NCBI GenBank assembly: GCA_014384675.1
Contig: JACNFK010000023.1
Span: 60,222-105,676, forward strand
Reading direction: 5' to 3'
DNA: 45,455 nt
Origin: Candidatus Thiopontia autotrophica
Lineage (GTDB): Bacteria; Pseudomonadota; Gammaproteobacteria; GCF-002020875
Both the position numbers and the translations under genes were made by a program. Below, piece after piece: positions 16,978 through 42,849 of this stretch (its first letter is position 1; each line of letters starts with the position of its first letter). Below the pieces are notes generated by a model. The model saw nothing but the letters and a program-made list of their open reading frames with translations, searched no databases and was not told where the DNA came from.

Positions 16978-17021
16978 AGAGGTGTGCAGATATCATTTGA
17001 TGCCGGGATGATGTGGTAGTA

Positions 17022-17660
17022 ATGATCACAGATAATTTGTTTAATCTCGTGGCATGTCATAACTGTGATCTACTTCACAAGGTGGACACTCGGGAGGCGG
17101 TTGGCCACATGGTGCGCTGCACTCGCTGCGGAACGGTACTGCAGCGCTCAACGAAAGACTCACTAAATCGAACCCTGGCTTTTGGCATATCTGGCCTGGT
17201 ACTATTTATTGTGGCCAATATGTTTCCAGTTATATCCATTCAGGCCAATGGAAACCTTTATGAGAGCACGTTGTTATCAGGGGTAATGGCTCTCTATCAT
17301 GACGGGATGTGGGGGCTGACGATCCTGGTTTTATTGACCAGTATTGTCGCGCCACTGTTATATCTGTCTGCGCTTGTCTATCTGTTATTGCCGTTATGTA
17401 TGGGCCGTGTCGCATGGCAATCAAAAAAAATATTTCGTAGCTTGACTCTTGTTGGGCAGTGGGAAATGGTTGGTGTGTACATTATTGGAAGCATGATATC
17501 CATTGTAAGGCTTGAAGATATCTCTGCTGCTGCACCTGGAGTTGCCATTTTTGCCCTGGGAGGAGTAATGTTTTCTGTGGCCGCAGTCAGAACAACAATT
17601 AATCCGGATGAAATCTGGAGGAGCCTGGAGAGGGGATCTTTGAAGGCAGGTAATAACTGA
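17022..17660 (+). CDS. pqiA: Paraquat-inducible protein A, first half (PqiA-like)
   Basis: About 212 residues, equivalent to one of the two halves of E. coli PqiA. A cytoplasmic zinc-ribbon-like segment with CHNC and CTRC pairs (residues 12-37) precedes four membrane helices. PqiA is the inner-membrane partner of PqiB, which forms a tunnel for lipids across the periplasm. The ATG at 17022 is preferred over a GTG at 17013. The stop overlaps the next start by one base (TGATG). Two separate half-length proteins instead of one fused PqiA is a known arrangement, and both frames are clean. Confidence 0.9.
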   Translation: MITDNLFNLVACHNCDLLHKVDTREAVGHMVRCTRCGTVLQRSTKDSLNRTLAFGISGLVLFIVANMFPVISIQANGNLYESTLLSGVMALYHDGMWGLTILVLLTSIVAPLLYLSALVYLLLPLCMGRVAWQSKKIFRSLTLVGQWEMVGVYIIGSMISIVRLEDISAAAPGVAIFALGGVMFSVAAVRTTINPDEIWRSLERGSLKAGNN

Positions 17661-18292
17661 TGGATGATTCTCCTACAGCACTACAGCACTCACTGGTGCA
17701 GTGTCATGTATGCGGCAGGGTGACAAGATTGGATTCGGTAGATAATGGGAAAGAGGGCGCCTTTTGTCCCCGTTGTGATACTTCGCTGCGTGCAAATATC
17801 CGGACCGGACTATTGCGTAGCTGGACACTTGTGGTTACAGCATCAGTTTTTTATGTTTTCGCCAACATCTATCCAATTATAACGGTTAAGCGTTTTGGCA
17901 GGGGAGAGCCGGATACTATTATCAGCGGTGTCTCTCATCTTATTGAAGAGGAAATGTATCTTCTGGCAGTGGTTATCTTTGTTGCCAGTATTGTCGTTCC
18001 GTTGATGAAACTGCTAACATTAACTTATCTGCTCATATCAGTTGGTTATTCTTCAACCAGGAGACGAATAGAGCGAACCAGAATGTATCGAATAATTGAA
18101 GGTATTGGGCACTGGTCAATGGTAGATATATTTGTACTCGCTACTCTTGTCGCACTTGTCGATTTGGGCTACCTCGCCACAGTCCATGCTGGCTTGGGGG
18201 CTGTTTTTTTTGCTCTGGTTATTGTCACCTCCAGATTTGCTGTATGGAGCTTTAATCCCAAGCTGATCTGGAGCAGAGGAAACAGAGCATAA
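17660..18292 (+). CDS. pqiA: Paraquat-inducible protein A, second half (PqiA-like)
   Basis: A 210-residue paralogue of the preceding gene: CHVC and CPRC pairs in the N-terminal cytoplasmic segment, then four membrane helices. It likely pairs with the upstream half to form a functional PqiA. Its start overlaps the upstream stop by one base and its stop overlaps the pqiB start by one base (TAATG), so all three are probably translated together. Confidence 0.9.
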   Translation: MDDSPTALQHSLVQCHVCGRVTRLDSVDNGKEGAFCPRCDTSLRANIRTGLLRSWTLVVTASVFYVFANIYPIITVKRFGRGEPDTIISGVSHLIEEEMYLLAVVIFVASIVVPLMKLLTLTYLLISVGYSSTRRRIERTRMYRIIEGIGHWSMVDIFVLATLVALVDLGYLATVHAGLGAVFFALVIVTSRFAVWSFNPKLIWSRGNRA

Positions 18293-19989
18293 TGACAGAA
18301 GAAGAGAAACAAAAATTATTTGATGATATTCCGGATGCATTGCTGGAGCGGCGTCGCGGATTCTCGATTATCTGGGTAATCCCTTTGATTGTCGTGTTGA
18401 TGGCGGGCTGGTTGACGGTAACAACAATAAGTGAGTATGGGCCAGAAATTTCCATCACCTTTCAAAACGGTGATGGGCTTGAGGTAGGAAAAACCCGTAT
18501 TCGATACAAAAATATTGAGGTTGGTATTGTTGAACATGTGAGGTTTAGCGACGATAAAAGAGAGGTTATTGTCGAGGCCAGAATGGATAAGGGGACGAAG
18601 TCATTCTTGGGTAGCGGAGCCAAATTCTGGATTGTCAGGCCACAAATATCTCTGCGTGAGGTTTCAGCCTTGGGGACGCTTTTCTCTGGATCGTATATTG
18701 CACTTATCCCTGGAGATGGATCTCCCCAGGAAGAGTTTGCAGGGCTGGAGCAACCACCAATTTCAACTGCTGAAACATCAGGACGCAAGTTTGTGTTGAG
18801 AACTGCAAATCTCAACTCCATAGAGGCAGGCACACCAGTCTATTTCCGTGGCATTCATGTGGGTGATGTTCTCAGTTACAAACTTGCCGATGACAACAGT
18901 ATTTTGGTACATATATTTATCAGCTCTCCGTACCACAGGAAGGTTGATCAAAACAGCTACTTTTGGAATGTTGGCGAAACCAAACTGACCCTAAGTGCTG
19001 ATGGATTACAGTTAAAAACTGATTCACTTGAGACGTTACTTTATGGCGGTATTGCTTTTGATTCACCAGATAGCGCAGACACATCAGCACCTGCAGATGA
19101 TGGAGGGCTGTTCATTCTATATGAGAACAAAGATAGTGCATCTCGACAGAGGGGCACCAAAAAAACCTCATATGTGACCTATTTCGACAGGTCAATCAGA
19201 GGGTTAAAGATTGGCGCACCCGTAGAGTTCAAGGGGATAAGAATCGGCTCTGTTGCTGATATACGTATGGAGATCGATAGCAAGGAGAGCACCATTCTGA
19301 TTCCGGTTCTGGTGGATATTGATGCTGAAATAGTTGCCAATATAGTACGGGTGAATGGCTCGACTTCGCCCGAGGTAACAATGGACTTCCTCATGAACAG
19401 TGGATTAAGGGCCAGATTATCTGTGGATAGTTATCTGACTGGGCAGCTGTTTATAGATATGGTGCTGGATCCAGAAAGTAATGCTCATGTTGTAGGTTAC
19501 AATGAACAGTATCCAGAAATACCAACGTTATCATCAGCCACAGTTGACGATGTTGTAAGTGCCATTGCTGCTATTTTGAAAAAAATTCAGGGGCTACCAA
19601 TAGAAGACATTGGACAGGAGTTGCTTGAAACCGCACAGGGCACAAACAGACTGGTAAACTCCAGTGAGATTCAAACGGTTGGCTCTTCTCTGCAACATAC
19701 GCTTGCTTCACTCGATGAACTGTCTATCAGATTGAGAAGTAATAGTAAAAGCATGGAAAGCGATGTGGTTAAAACAAGCGCTATGATTCGTTCTGTGCTA
19801 CAGCAAACCGAAACAACAATTAAACTTATGAACAATATTCTTGACCCAGGCTCACCGGTGCAATATCAGCTAAATGAGATGACAACAGAGTTAACTGCTG
19901 CAGCCCGCTCAATGAGAGATTTTATTGAATACCTTGAAAGAAACCCGCAAGTTTTAATTCATGGCCAGGGAGGAATCGCATCACCATGA
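18292..19989 (+). CDS. pqiB: PqiB-type MCE-domain lipid transport protein
   Basis: A 565-residue protein anchored by one N-terminal helix (about residues 22-42) with three MCE/MlaD domains in the periplasm (near 48-140, 165-225 and 290-385) and a long C-terminal helical region. This matches PqiB, whose hexamers stack into a needle that bridges the inner and outer membranes for lipid traffic. MCE signatures such as GLEVGKTRIRYKNIEVG and GAPVEFKGIRIGSV are clear. It lies in the middle of a four-gene overlapping operon. Confidence 0.94.
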   Translation: MTEEEKQKLFDDIPDALLERRRGFSIIWVIPLIVVLMAGWLTVTTISEYGPEISITFQNGDGLEVGKTRIRYKNIEVGIVEHVRFSDDKREVIVEARMDKGTKSFLGSGAKFWIVRPQISLREVSALGTLFSGSYIALIPGDGSPQEEFAGLEQPPISTAETSGRKFVLRTANLNSIEAGTPVYFRGIHVGDVLSYKLADDNSILVHIFISSPYHRKVDQNSYFWNVGETKLTLSADGLQLKTDSLETLLYGGIAFDSPDSADTSAPADDGGLFILYENKDSASRQRGTKKTSYVTYFDRSIRGLKIGAPVEFKGIRIGSVADIRMEIDSKESTILIPVLVDIDAEIVANIVRVNGSTSPEVTMDFLMNSGLRARLSVDSYLTGQLFIDMVLDPESNAHVVGYNEQYPEIPTLSSATVDDVVSAIAAILKKIQGLPIEDIGQELLETAQGTNRLVNSSEIQTVGSSLQHTLASLDELSIRLRSNSKSMESDVVKTSAMIRSVLQQTETTIKLMNNILDPGSPVQYQLNEMTTELTAAARSMRDFIEYLERNPQVLIHGQGGIASP

Positions 19990-20609
19990 CTGGATATAAT
20001 TCAAGAGACAAAAAAGTAAATTCCATCCTGCTTTGGTTGGCAATGTTTGCTTTTCTTTTTGGGACCTTGGCTGGATGCTCAGTTGTACCAACTGTTGCTC
20101 CAACCACAACACATTTCTTTCTTCTTGATGCTGTTGATATTGTTGAGCGGGCAGATAAGGAAGATGATGGGTATTCAGTTGGCATACATCCTGTGGTTCT
20201 GCCATCATATCTGAATAGGCCGCAGCTGGTGTCCAGAATTGCGCTTAACGAACTCTATCTATCGGAGAACAATCGATGGGGGGAGCCACTAAAAGAGAAT
20301 ATTTCCAGGGTCCTGTTCGAGAATATAAAGGCGATACTGGAAAACAGTAAGGTGGAAAGATTGCCAAAACAGGGCAAGCAACCAGCATATGCAATACAGG
20401 TTTATATAGACAGATTTGAGCGGTTCCCAGACCAGAGAATTTATCTGGATGCATACTGGAAAATTGGTGGAGGAGATCGGGGCGAGCTGATGCGATCTGC
20501 TTCTCTGATAAGTGATCCAGTTGATGTTGCGGGAGAGTCTGCGACAGTCAAGAGTATGAGTGAGCTGCTGAAACAGCTCTCAATTGAGATCAGTGCGTCT
20601 ATAAAATAG
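19986..20609 (+). CDS. pqiC: PqiC-like outer-membrane lipoprotein (ABC-type transport auxiliary, DUF330)
   Basis: A 207-residue lipoprotein. The signal peptide ends in LAGC (Cys about residue 29), a good lipobox. The body contains VGIHPVVLPSYLNRPQLVSR and the SEILEN-like LFENIKAIL region typical of PqiC/YmbA proteins, which contact PqiB at the outer membrane. The start overlaps the pqiB stop by 4 nt (ATGA). It ends the pqi operon and converges on the methyltransferase at 20633. Confidence 0.92.
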   Translation: MTGYNSRDKKVNSILLWLAMFAFLFGTLAGCSVVPTVAPTTTHFFLLDAVDIVERADKEDDGYSVGIHPVVLPSYLNRPQLVSRIALNELYLSENNRWGEPLKENISRVLFENIKAILENSKVERLPKQGKQPAYAIQVYIDRFERFPDQRIYLDAYWKIGGGDRGELMRSASLISDPVDVAGESATVKSMSELLKQLSIEISASIK

Positions 20610-38722: not shown

Positions 38723-38756
38723 ATAGACCATCTTCTTGGTCACTTGGGATATAGAG

Positions 38757-39365
38757 ATGCTTCACAATATTAAGGAAGTTTGTGAGTTAACGGGGAAAAG
38801 TCGCTCCAGTATCTATCGCATGTTCAGTCGCGGAGATTTGACTTACGTTGTGGGAAAGGATGGGAAACGTCGTGTAGAGACATCCGAACTACTACGAGTG
38901 TTTGATGACATAAATTTCAATGACTCACCAACCCTTTCTGTTCCGGAGGATATTCCTTCTAGCCCTGCATCTGGAGGTGACCCTTACGTTACAGCCAGAG
39001 AGCTTACTGATCTGCGAGGCCTTATCCATGACCTAAGATCCGAGCTTGATGATATTCGGGAGGATAACCGTAGATTGTTGCGTCTACTGGAATATCAGAC
39101 TGTTCAAGGGTCTGCGCAACCGCAGAGTCGACCAGTCGAGCCACAGGGTCAGGCTCAGGGTGATTGGGTAGATGATATATCAGCAGAAGAGGATACGGTT
39201 CCGGTTACCGAGGTGGCTGGACAGGGCTGGAAAGCCTATCGTCAACAACGCACAGAACAGACCCAATCTGGATCCCAAACAGCGTCACCAGTCACGTCAG
39301 GTCTGTTTGGAGAGCTGGGTATGTGGTTGAGAAACTTTTTTCTGGGTGAGTGGCAGAAACGTTAA
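38757..39365 (+). CDS. DNA-binding protein with excisionase-type HTH and coiled coil, function unknown
   Basis: About 202 residues. The N-terminal 48 residues form a MerR/excisionase-like helix-turn-helix (NIKEVCELTGKSRSSIYRMF, then a GKDGKRRVETSELL wing). A charged coiled coil follows at about 79-114 (LRGLIHDLRSELDDIREDN), then a Gln/Pro-rich linker, and a C-terminal amphipathic Trp/Phe segment ending in NFFLGEWQKR. The layout resembles plasmid-type KfrA or entry-exclusion-like DNA-binding proteins, but I do not recognise an exact family. The ATG at 38757 is chosen over an in-frame TTG at 38736. An inverted repeat lies just upstream. Confidence 0.65.
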   Translation: MLHNIKEVCELTGKSRSSIYRMFSRGDLTYVVGKDGKRRVETSELLRVFDDINFNDSPTLSVPEDIPSSPASGGDPYVTARELTDLRGLIHDLRSELDDIREDNRRLLRLLEYQTVQGSAQPQSRPVEPQGQAQGDWVDDISAEEDTVPVTEVAGQGWKAYRQQRTEQTQSGSQTASPVTSGLFGELGMWLRNFFLGEWQKR

Positions 39366-39473: not shown

Positions 39474-39821
39474 TTACTGAATCAGGCTGAAGACACCATG
39501 TTCCGCAGCGACCTGTTGTGAACAGAACAGCTCCTTGATCTTGGCAATCAGGGGTCGCATCTCTGCCGTCTGGACTGAGCAGTAGACCTTGTTGTGTACG
39601 CGTCTCGACTGGATGACTCCAGCATTCCGGAGCACCTCCAGATGCTGGGATATGTTGCTCTGAGTGCTGCCGGCATACTCCAGTATTTCGTTGACAATCT
39701 TCTCCTGATCACCAAGGAAACAGAGAATCTTCAGTCGTGTAGGGTGGCTTATTGCCTGCAGTGCAGACGAGATCTGCTGGATCTCACCCTTATCAGATGG
39801 CAAATCAAGATTATCTTCCAT
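39474..39821 (-). CDS. ArsR-family repressor, SqrR/BigR/YgaV-like persulfide sensor candidate
   Basis: A 115-residue winged-helix ArsR protein: ALQAISHPTRLKILCFLG, helix-turn-helix QSNISQHLEVLRNAGVI and wing RRVHNKVYCSV. It lacks the ELCVCDL metal site of ArsR/SmtB arsenic sensors. Cys34 (in KILC) and Cys100 (in LFC) are 66 residues apart, the same separation as Cys41 and Cys107 of SqrR, which form a polysulfide bridge in response to reactive sulfur. A third Cys (81) is extra. No sulfide-oxidation gene adjoins it, so targets are unknown. The start has GGAGGAG upstream. Confidence 0.85.
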   Translation of the reverse strand: MEDNLDLPSDKGEIQQISSALQAISHPTRLKILCFLGDQEKIVNEILEYAGSTQSNISQHLEVLRNAGVIQSRRVHNKVYCSVQTAEMRPLIAKIKELFCSQQVAAEHGVFSLIQ

Positions 39822-39870: not shown

Positions 39871-39899
39871 ATTATACGGTAATATTTTTCTGTTATCAA
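39871..39899 (-). promoter_or_regulatory. Sigma70 promoter of the arsR gene
   Basis: Minus-strand TTGATA (39894-39899) and a consensus TATAAT (39871-39876) are separated by 17 nt. The -35 overlaps the end of the XRE gene. Expected transcription starts near 39864, about 40 nt before the arsR ATG. Confidence 0.65.
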
Positions 39900-40231
39900 A
39901 TCGTTATGCAGCACTTGATGTTGTATTTCTCTTCAATGTAACGCGCAAGCACTCTCTGTTGATCCTTGTCTAGCTGGACGCAGAGAAGAATAAGCTGGGC
40001 AAGTTCATTATCATCTGCATGAAAGAAGGCAACCGGCACCCTGAGGACGGCAGACAGTTTTGCAATTGTCTGGTCACTGGGGCGATGACGGTTGTTTTCG
40101 TATTGGTTTACGCGTGGGCTGGCAGTTGCCGGATCAATCCCTATCTCCAGCCCCAGCTGTTTCTGTGACAATCCCAATTGTTGCCTTGCCTGTTTCAGGC
40201 GTTCACCGAATACTATCTTCTGGCTTCCCAT
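39896..40231 (-). CDS. XRE-family helix-turn-helix regulator
   Basis: A 111-residue regulator with an N-terminal Cro/C1-type domain (residues 8-65: RLKQARQQLGLSQKQLGLEIG, then RVNQYENNRHRPSDQTIAKLSAVL) and a short C-terminal helical tail (ELAQLILLCVQLDKDQQRVLARYIEEK). The ATG at 40231 with AGGAGG 11 nt upstream is preferred over a TTG at 40240 that lies almost on the ribosome site. The target is unknown. A perfect inverted repeat at 40296-40312 in the divergent region is a plausible binding site. Confidence 0.88.
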   Translation of the reverse strand: MGSQKIVFGERLKQARQQLGLSQKQLGLEIGIDPATASPRVNQYENNRHRPSDQTIAKLSAVLRVPVAFFHADDNELAQLILLCVQLDKDQQRVLARYIEEKYNIKCCITI

Positions 40232-40258
40232 GCCTTGCAAGGCCTCCTTCCCTTATAG

Positions 40259-40418: not shown

Positions 40419-40453
40419 TTGTTGGATGAAGTGAAAAAAAAAGGGAGCTGTCT

Positions 40454-41995
40454 GTGAAAAAATTTATCTCATTAGTGTTGTTGGTCTTTTCAGCGGGGGC
40501 ATTTGCGAATCCTGTAGCTGACTTGGAGGGAAAACATGGATACGATAGAAGAGCAGCCATTACCAGAATGTCTGATACAGATTGGGGTGGACAGCGATTC
40601 TCGATAGAAAAAGGTATTGAGCTTCTGCAGGGTTTGACAGGTACAGACAGATACTATGCTGCTAAATCATTGCTGGGATCGAATCGCTACAAAAGAAATA
40701 TGTTGCCTGGCAATATGTCTGTGCGGCAGATGAATGCTGTTCTGGATGGTGTTGGTGAGCAGCGCGGCGATCTTATTGCCCATCTTGCTGACTTTGAGAT
40801 ACCCGCAGGAAATTTTGGAGTGGCAGAGATCCAGTCATTAATTGGTGATGTGGCCGGTGATGATTATGAGCGCTCAATGAAAGCCCTTATGGGATCTAAT
40901 CAGATGCACAGAAATTATGCCATCTCCTCTCTTGGTGTAGATCAGGTTGATGCTCTTCTGTCCAGAGACACGAATCGTGCGGGGATGATTCGTTACATGG
41001 CGGACTACGCAATTCTTGAGGGAAATTTTACAGTTGATGGTGCAGAAAAGATGATGCGTACCCAGAGCGGCATGGATCGTCATGACTCTGTCAAGGCGCT
41101 GTTGGGGTCCAACCAGCAGAAACGTAATTACCTCAATATACCTCTCAGCTTTGTAGATGCACAACGTCTGCTCGACGGTACTGCATTGAGATCTGAGCTG
41201 ATCAATTACTTTTCTGACCGTGGGGTTTTTGCGGACAGGCTGACAGCAGATGAAGCAGCCAGATTGCTGGAGAACATCAAACATACTGATCGTTTTGAGA
41301 CGTTGAAGACCCTGCTTGGATTCAATCAGCAACAGAGGGACTATCTGCGGTCACCCCTCAGTGTGAATGATGTGTATACACTGCTTGCCGGCACAGCATA
41401 TCGTGACGAGATGATCGGATTAATGGCAGATCGTGGTGTAATCGTCGACGGTATCTCAGTGGCTGATGCAGTTATGATGATGGAGCAAATCACGCGTGCC
41501 GATCGGTATGATGCAGTTAGTTCTCTGCTGGGAAATAATAAACAGAAGAGAAGCTATATAACTTTGCCGATTACAGCTGCCGGTGCCATTCAGCTAATGG
41601 AAGGCGGCGCATATCGGGATGAGTTGATAGGTTTTATGGTTGATCATGGCCTTATTGAAAATAGACTGAGTGCCGATGACACAGTAGCGCTACTAGAAGA
41701 TCTTGTTGGTATGGACAGGTACGACGCTCTTCTCGCACTGATGGGAGAGAACGGGCAGACAAGAAATTATCTCGATATGCCAATGGGTCCATCCTCAATG
41801 GTATCGCTATTCGAGAGGACGGCTAACAGAAAGGAGCTGATAGCATTGATTGCTGATCAGGGAATGGTTGATGGCACCATAAATGCTGCAGAGGCAGAAC
41901 ACCTTCTGGGGAGGCTTTATGGAGAGGAGCGTGAGCAGGCGCTGAAGATTCTGCAGGGTGATAACAGACTCAAGAGGATATACCTCTCCAATTAG
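40454..41995 (+). CDS. Secreted tandem-repeat protein (about seven 71-residue repeats), family not recognised
   Basis: A 513-residue protein with a signal peptide (MKKFISLVLLVFSAGAFA, cleavage before Asn19). Almost the whole mature chain is a tandem repeat with a 71-72 residue period. Units start at residues 62, 134, 205, 276, 347 and 418, with a half unit at 30-61 and another at 489-513. The common pattern is DR-x-(D/E)-A-x-x-x-L-(L/M)-G-x-N-x-x-x-R-x-Y, then L near position 27, then R-x-E-(L/M)-I-x-x-(M/F)-A-D-x-G, then A-x-x-L-(L/M)-E. It is mostly helical and probably solenoid-like. The start is GTG with AAGGGAG six nt upstream. The exported DNA ligase begins 11 nt after its stop. Function unknown. 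Confidence 0.85.
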   Translation: MKKFISLVLLVFSAGAFANPVADLEGKHGYDRRAAITRMSDTDWGGQRFSIEKGIELLQGLTGTDRYYAAKSLLGSNRYKRNMLPGNMSVRQMNAVLDGVGEQRGDLIAHLADFEIPAGNFGVAEIQSLIGDVAGDDYERSMKALMGSNQMHRNYAISSLGVDQVDALLSRDTNRAGMIRYMADYAILEGNFTVDGAEKMMRTQSGMDRHDSVKALLGSNQQKRNYLNIPLSFVDAQRLLDGTALRSELINYFSDRGVFADRLTADEAARLLENIKHTDRFETLKTLLGFNQQQRDYLRSPLSVNDVYTLLAGTAYRDEMIGLMADRGVIVDGISVADAVMMMEQITRADRYDAVSSLLGNNKQKRSYITLPITAAGAIQLMEGGAYRDELIGFMVDHGLIENRLSADDTVALLEDLVGMDRYDALLALMGENGQTRNYLDMPMGPSSMVSLFERTANRKELIALIADQGMVDGTINAAEAEHLLGRLYGEEREQALKILQGDNRLKRIYLSN

Positions 41996-42006
41996 AGGCG
42001 CATGTT

Positions 42007-42849
42007 GTGAAGATTGAGAAAGGTCTGCAGTGGGTGTTATTGCTATGGATCTTTGGATTATCTCCGCTCTATGCGGATGATTATTCTGATCCGATTCTGG
42101 CAAAGGTCTATCAAAGTGAGGATTTGACCGGTTGGTGGGTAAGTGAGAAGCTGGATGGAGTGCGCGCTATCTGGAATGGCAAAATTCTTCTTTTTCGTAG
42201 TGGACGTCCTATTAGTGCCCCGAACTGGTTTACAGAGTCATTTCCAGAATACTCTATGGATGGAGAGCTCTGGATGGGGAGGGGCACTTTTGACAGGCTT
42301 TCCGGGACGGTGCGAAGAGATGTGCCTGTGGATGATGAGTGGAGGAGAATACGCTACATGCTGTTTGAGCTCCCGGATCAGCCAGGTACATTTACAGAAA
42401 GAGTGGAGAGAATGGAACAACTTGTGCGCTCTTTGAAGATACCCTGGTTGCAGGTAGTTTCGCAGGAACGTGTGGGGAATGACGCTCTGTTGATGCAGCA
42501 GCTGGAGCAGATAGTGCAGCAGGGAGGGGAGGGTTTGATGTTGCATCGGGCAGATTCACACTATCATGGAGGTCGTAGCAGCGACCTGTTAAAGCTGAAA
42601 TCATGGCAGGATGCTGAGGCCGCAGTGGTTGAGATTCTGCCTGGTAAAGGGAAGTATGACGGCATGATGGGATCTCTGCTGGTGGAGAGCGAGAATGGGA
42701 GACGTTTTCGTATCGGCAGTGGCTTTAAGCTGCAAGAGAGGAAAAATCCGCCATCCGTGGGAACCGTGATTACTTACAAATATACTGGCCTAACCCCAAA
42801 CGGGTTGCCGCGTTTTGCCAGTTTTTTACGTATTCACCATACGTTTTGA
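42007..42849 (+). CDS. Exported minimal ATP-dependent DNA ligase (LigE-type)
   Basis: A 280-residue ligase that joins nicked DNA using ATP, with an N-terminal signal peptide (GLQWVLLLWIFGLSPLYA, cleavage near Ala23) that directs it to the periplasm. Catalytic Lys48 lies in EKLDGVRA. Further nucleotidyltransferase motifs are MDGELWMGRGTF, GGEGLMLHR and LLKLKSW, followed by an OB-fold domain (GKYDGMMGSLLVE; FRIGSGF). It lacks extra DNA-binding domains, as LigE proteins do. These are found in Gram-negative bacteria and linked to extracellular DNA or competence. The GTG start has GAGG 8 nt upstream, just past the stop of the repeat protein, so the two are likely one transcript. Confidence 0.92.
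   Translation: MKIEKGLQWVLLLWIFGLSPLYADDYSDPILAKVYQSEDLTGWWVSEKLDGVRAIWNGKILLFRSGRPISAPNWFTESFPEYSMDGELWMGRGTFDRLSGTVRRDVPVDDEWRRIRYMLFELPDQPGTFTERVERMEQLVRSLKIPWLQVVSQERVGNDALLMQQLEQIVQQGGEGLMLHRADSHYHGGRSSDLLKLKSWQDAEAAVVEILPGKGKYDGMMGSLLVESENGRRFRIGSGFKLQERKNPPSVGTVITYKYTGLTPNGLPRFASFLRIHHTF

Follow-up and report, generated by a model that had tools for sequence, protein, structure and literature searches.

A predicted exported helical-hairpin repeat protein of seven 71-residue units in Candidatus Thiopontia autotrophica

We analysed a stretch of 45,455 nucleotides from Candidatus Thiopontia autotrophica (contig JACNFK010000023.1, positions 60,222 to 105,676; hereafter the window), in which an open reading frame with a GTG start codon encodes the repeat protein described here (Table 1). 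Its leader, VKKFISLVLLVFSAGAFA followed by N, was judged by eye to be a typical Sec signal peptide, with a Kyte-Doolittle 19 maximum of 1.95 versus 1.26 in the mature part, and the leaders of both orthologs resemble it, suggesting that the protein is exported via this Sec leader. No membrane helix was evident in the hydrophobicity profile of the mature protein. The protein is acidic (pI ~5), and cysteine is absent from the mature part in all three orthologs. A promoter and terminator scan around the gene was uninformative, and an Rfam search of the region gave no match. On the same strand, 11-12 nt after the stop codon, follows a gene for a Lig E-type ligase that likewise carries a hydrophobic leader peptide, with tsaD downstream of it, while the minus strand upstream of the repeat gene encodes Xre-type and ArsR-type regulators. 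The former, which adjoins the ArsR-family gene, matches a restriction-modification ‘control protein’ (PADLOC PDLC03667, 77.6 bits), and no gene for restriction or methylation was noticed next to it. Elsewhere in the window, an HTH_17 protein has a sub-threshold match to the plasmid replication DNA-binding family NF038291 (32.5 bits vs 85), and a pqi-like operon comprises two separate PqiA proteins, a 565-aa MlaD-domain protein and an ABC_trans_aux lipoprotein.

Table 1. Positions of the repeat-protein gene, its parts and other features of the window
Feature	Position	Strand	Basis or remark
pqi-like operon	17013..20609	+	
HTH_17 protein	38736..39365	+	
ArsR-family regulator	39474..39821	-	
Xre-type regulator	39896..40240	-	
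GGGAG ribosome-binding-like sequence	40443..40447	+	6 nt before the GTG start; direct reading
Repeat-protein gene	40454..41995	+	codes for 513 aa (predicted exported, seven helical units); coordinates include the stop codon
Sec-type signal peptide, residues 1-18	40454..40507	+	hydrophobicity; cleavage placed by eye between AFA and N
Unit 0, residues 30-87	40541..40714	+	without first helix; E = 1.5e-7 with profile excluding unit 0
Unit 1, residues 88-159 (72 aa)	40715..40930	+	unit alignment, profile
Unit 2, residues 160-230	40931..41143	+	unit alignment, profile
Unit 3, residues 231-301	41144..41356	+	unit alignment, profile
Unit 4, residues 302-372	41357..41569	+	unit alignment, profile
Unit 5, residues 373-443	41570..41782	+	unit alignment, profile
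Unit 6, residues 444-513	41783..41992	+	runs to C-terminus
Exported Lig E-type ATP-dependent DNA ligase	42007..42849	+	PRK09125 (NCBIfam), 369.1 bits, cut-off 200

Under BLOSUM62 scoring, the autocorrelation of the mature sequence is highest at lag 71 (z = 19.6), with multiples of this period also prominent (lag 142, z = 17.1; lag 213, z = 11.8; lag 284, z = 8.4) against a largest z of 4.5 at any lag in 500 shuffles, bearing out the 71-residue period proposed in an earlier note on this DNA. Cutting at the LLGxN anchors (residues 73, 145, 216, 287, 358 and 429) yields units of 71-72 residues. The same note had counted six complete and two half units; the array is the same but the phase differs, the structural register giving seven units. 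Searching the gene with a profile built from the complete units recovers seven copies; one of these is the partial unit at the N-terminus, which the profile did not include (unit 0 in Table 1). This partial unit holds the only tryptophan of the mature protein, which is kept in all three orthologs. Secondary autocorrelation lags of 39 and 32, together with a score of 20.1 between the profiles of half A and half B (column-shuffle null 8.2 +/- 2.0, reached by 0 of 150 shuffles), indicate that each 71-residue unit is a pair of related helical hairpins of ~32 and 39 residues. The units share 23-41% pairwise identity within the protein and no 213-nt repeat was found at the DNA level (TRF), so the array is old and not a recent DNA expansion, as had been argued before. 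Across 16 aligned units only I, L, G, N and Y positions are invariant; the invariant G-N and Y, which fall within the turn region LLGxN...Y, seem to have a structural role and not a catalytic one, and no conserved catalytic motif is visible in the protein, as noted before.

AlphaFold2, in a model that rests on the alignment of the three orthologous sequences, predicted a regular all-hairpin solenoid (mean pLDDT 84, pTM 0.72), consistent with the helical repeat fold suggested earlier. In the model ~26 short helices alternate along the mature protein, with single-residue beta bridges between hairpins, and a single-sequence run returned the same helix pattern at a pLDDT of 67. Foldseek found no match in the PDB at E <= 0.001, the best 50 matches including TPR, PPR, PUF and importin-type solenoids with a TM to the query of at most 0.25. 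The predicted fold shares the general stacked-hairpin design of TPR, PPR, Pumilio and ARM solenoids, but its unit is 71 residues long (32 + 39) rather than 34-42, and no TPR, PPR, PUF, HEAT or ARM family was among the Pfam matches of the orthologs or units.

Seven-unit orthologs are present in three of the six species of the genus, the window species included, at 42-48% identity. The two relatives (L004, genome G002, 48% identity, JABHIC010000197.1; L005, genome G005, 43% identity, DUYW01000012.1) come from isolate SI037_bin54 and from SI34jun09_200m, names which we take to be Saanich Inlet sample codes, so that both would be Saanich Inlet MAGs. The gene was not found in the other three species, two of which are represented by genomes 99% and 95% complete. 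No convincing relatives were detected in samples covering ~370 genomes from the class and 398 from the phylum, the collections being scanned by sample or by peptide pattern, nor were any found in phages, plasmids and viral contigs. A class-wide match in genome G307 (E = 2.6e-4) was discarded as its frames overlap clpB on the opposite strand, and single-unit matches in five further Gammaproteobacteria (per-genome E of 0.002-0.006; 369 genomes) are at chance level. As far as sampled, relatives of the protein therefore appear to be confined to its own genus. Between species, units at the same position are on average 50% identical versus 29% for units at different positions, with unit 6 the most diverged (31-47%), and the best unit matches are positional in 35 of 36 cases, indicating that the seven-unit array predates the three species. 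Identities between genus members are 42-48% for the repeat protein, 59-69% for the ligase and 78-86% for intact copies of TsaD, the repeat protein being the fastest of the three to diverge, and we read its gene as an accessory, fast-evolving one. The tsaD copies of two MAGs are interrupted, by an in-frame stop in G001 (L049) and by a broken frame in G002 (L050/L051); these are probably assembly errors, the gene being essential.

No Pfam or NCBIfam family scored above its curated cut-off with the repeat protein, in agreement with the previous statement that the repeats match no known family. Weak matches to SHOCT-like, PAS_7, RPAP3_C and REase_II families and to an Mtu_PIN fragment (Pfam, NCBIfam, PHROGs, PADLOC) were mutually inconsistent and were rejected, as was clathrin by phmmer (E >= 0.39). 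The most persistent sequence signal, itself weak, appears to be MgtE_N (PF03448), raising the prospect, in our view an unlikely one, that the protein descends from the MgtE_N/FliG ARM-like superhelix and serves as a periplasmic ring or assembly scaffold like FlgY. Sub-cut-off MgtE_N matches occur in two of the three orthologs (best E = 9e-4, in an ortholog) and in one of the 16 units, and among solved structures the MgtE chain 8gpv ranked first with one profile (E = 0.029) and second with the other (E = 0.48). The unit profile aligns with 30 MgtE_N domains over 49 columns (P = 0.0011), a score reached by none of 100 column shuffles nor by the reversed profile, and both share helical hairpins in the register LTxxExxxLLxxLxxxDRxxxLxxL. 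FlgY of Campylobacter jejuni, a periplasmic scaffold with a signal peptide and an MgtE_N-like domain, provides a precedent (PMC11870540), the repeat protein being likewise exported on our reading of its leader. However, the window protein scores 12.7 bits against a Pfam cut-off of 25.9, hhalign gives the 49-column alignment a probability of only 20% and double units 7%, and MgtE is not among the best 50 Foldseek PDB matches. Unlike MgtE_N, a single short domain on the cytoplasmic side of a transporter that also has CBS and membrane parts, the protein consists of seven 71-residue units with predicted beta bridges between hairpins, and it has a signal peptide in place of the transporter setting, with no membrane helix, CBS match or coiled-coil part. 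Flagellar genes are absent from all repeat-gene neighbourhoods read.

DUF4476 (PF14771) presents the opposite case, a possible fold similarity without sequence-profile similarity. This hairpin domain is known from giant viruses, too, and from exported Bacteroidota proteins. The best Foldseek matches among viral models are uncharacterised mimivirus-group proteins of ~10% identity (A0A167RP74, the best, E = 2.5e-4, prob 1.00; L7RCI7, TMt 0.56), and two viral models annotated as DUF4476 also match (E = 1.0e-2, prob 1.00; E = 7.6e-2, prob 0.89; TMt 0.28-0.33), the common element with DUF4476 and mimivirus-group proteins such as L750 being repeated short hairpins. DUF4476 probe sequences, which scored 102 and 110 bits in a Pfam check, located two real plasmid-borne members, and both of these proteins, once fetched, proved to have signal or lipoprotein leaders and so resemble the repeat protein in being exported. 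A Phocaeicola plasmid DUF4476 protein (L060:1054-1731) has a lipoprotein-like leader and, by eye, an N-terminal SmpA/BamE-like stretch. Nevertheless, it seems quite unlikely that the repeat protein is a very diverged, expanded relative of DUF4476: with E allowed up to 5-10, neither the three orthologs nor any of the 16 units matched this family in Pfam (gathering score 22.5 bits), and profile-profile comparison with a shallow DUF4476 profile of two database sequences was at chance (probability 0.1-0.3%, the score being reached by 10 and 28 of 100 shuffles). No DUF4476 was found in a six-frame search of genome G000, nor above cut-off in the sampled Gammaproteobacteria (185 genomes) or Pseudomonadota (398). 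DUF4476 further differs in being ~91 residues long, single in the two proteins fetched and found in different phyla. It is defensible to describe the repeat protein as a helical-hairpin solenoid outside assigned families, with MgtE_N and DUF4476 as two competing weak leads.

The earlier note had also asked whether homologues sit beside exported ligases. Within the window, the shared strand, the 11-12 nt gap and the signal peptides on both products would suit an accessory factor of the Lig E ligase, for example one binding extracellular DNA, but this association is not conserved. All six genus members have a Lig E-type gene, including the three without the repeat protein, and in the other carriers of the repeat gene (L005's genome among them) it and the ligase are on different contigs. 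Three of the six (window, G004 and G005) have the ligase a short way upstream of tsaD; elsewhere the two are apart or on different contigs. In G004 and G005 the ligase is itself preceded by yqeY, then dnaG and rpoD (names by eye from translations). Synteny rules out Lig E as a conserved partner and, the protein's acidity being unlike that of a typical DNA binder, we regard an accessory role for the ligase as very improbable. A convergent sensor kinase follows the repeat gene in L005 and a GGDEF gene precedes it in L004; no neighbour is shared among the three carriers, so gene context names no partner. An enzyme or a calcium-binding protein of annexin-like or EF-hand-like type is hardly credible, for although annexin repeats are also ~70 residues long and an annexin is the 50th entry among the PDB fold matches, the TM to annexin is 0.12, the units have two hairpins versus five helices, no annexin or EF-hand Pfam match was obtained and the sequence has no DxDxDG motif.

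We favour, with a probability of about 0.62, an exported, soluble and elongated solenoid that acts as a non-enzymatic accessory scaffold or binding protein. In this model the solenoid would be a stack of ~13 two-helix hairpins, each 71-residue unit contributing two, and after Sec export it would fold in the periplasm or outside the cell and work without being an enzyme. A partner, be it protein, peptide or glycan, would be bound along one of its faces, with the invariant LLGxN...Y, D and I positions holding the stack together and the variable positions setting binding specificity. The predicted helical fold, the signal peptide and the lack of a membrane helix in the mature part agree with the earlier proposal of a periplasmic or extracellular scaffold or binding protein; the scaffold or binding role in that proposal is plausible, and we infer binding from the predicted architecture. 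The protein may instead be an enzyme of unusual type whose active site is dispersed, and it could be a cytoplasmic solenoid if the leader is not used. For the favoured exported solenoid, a surface- or niche-related partner is more likely than a housekeeping machine because the gene appears to be accessory and fast-evolving. The best reading of the protein is as a lineage-restricted variant of the broad hairpin-solenoid class.

On its own the protein opens no long-standing question. It is a clean orphan family of a common design. It is possible, though doubtful, that it represents a new exported solenoid family in which a two-hairpin 71-residue module with a beta-bridge ladder links the DUF4476 hairpin of giant viruses and Bacteroidota to an extracellular scaffold of bacteria; the family would then be limited to a single marine lineage, some members of which come from oxygen-depleted water. 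Structural work could test its weak links to MgtE_N/FliG and DUF4476. The repeat protein is an orphan restricted to its lineage, its architecture is unusually clear and its fold is predicted with confidence, which together make it a practical choice both for establishing a new family of helical repeats and for learning what these marine Gammaproteobacteria bind, whether periplasmically or extracellularly.
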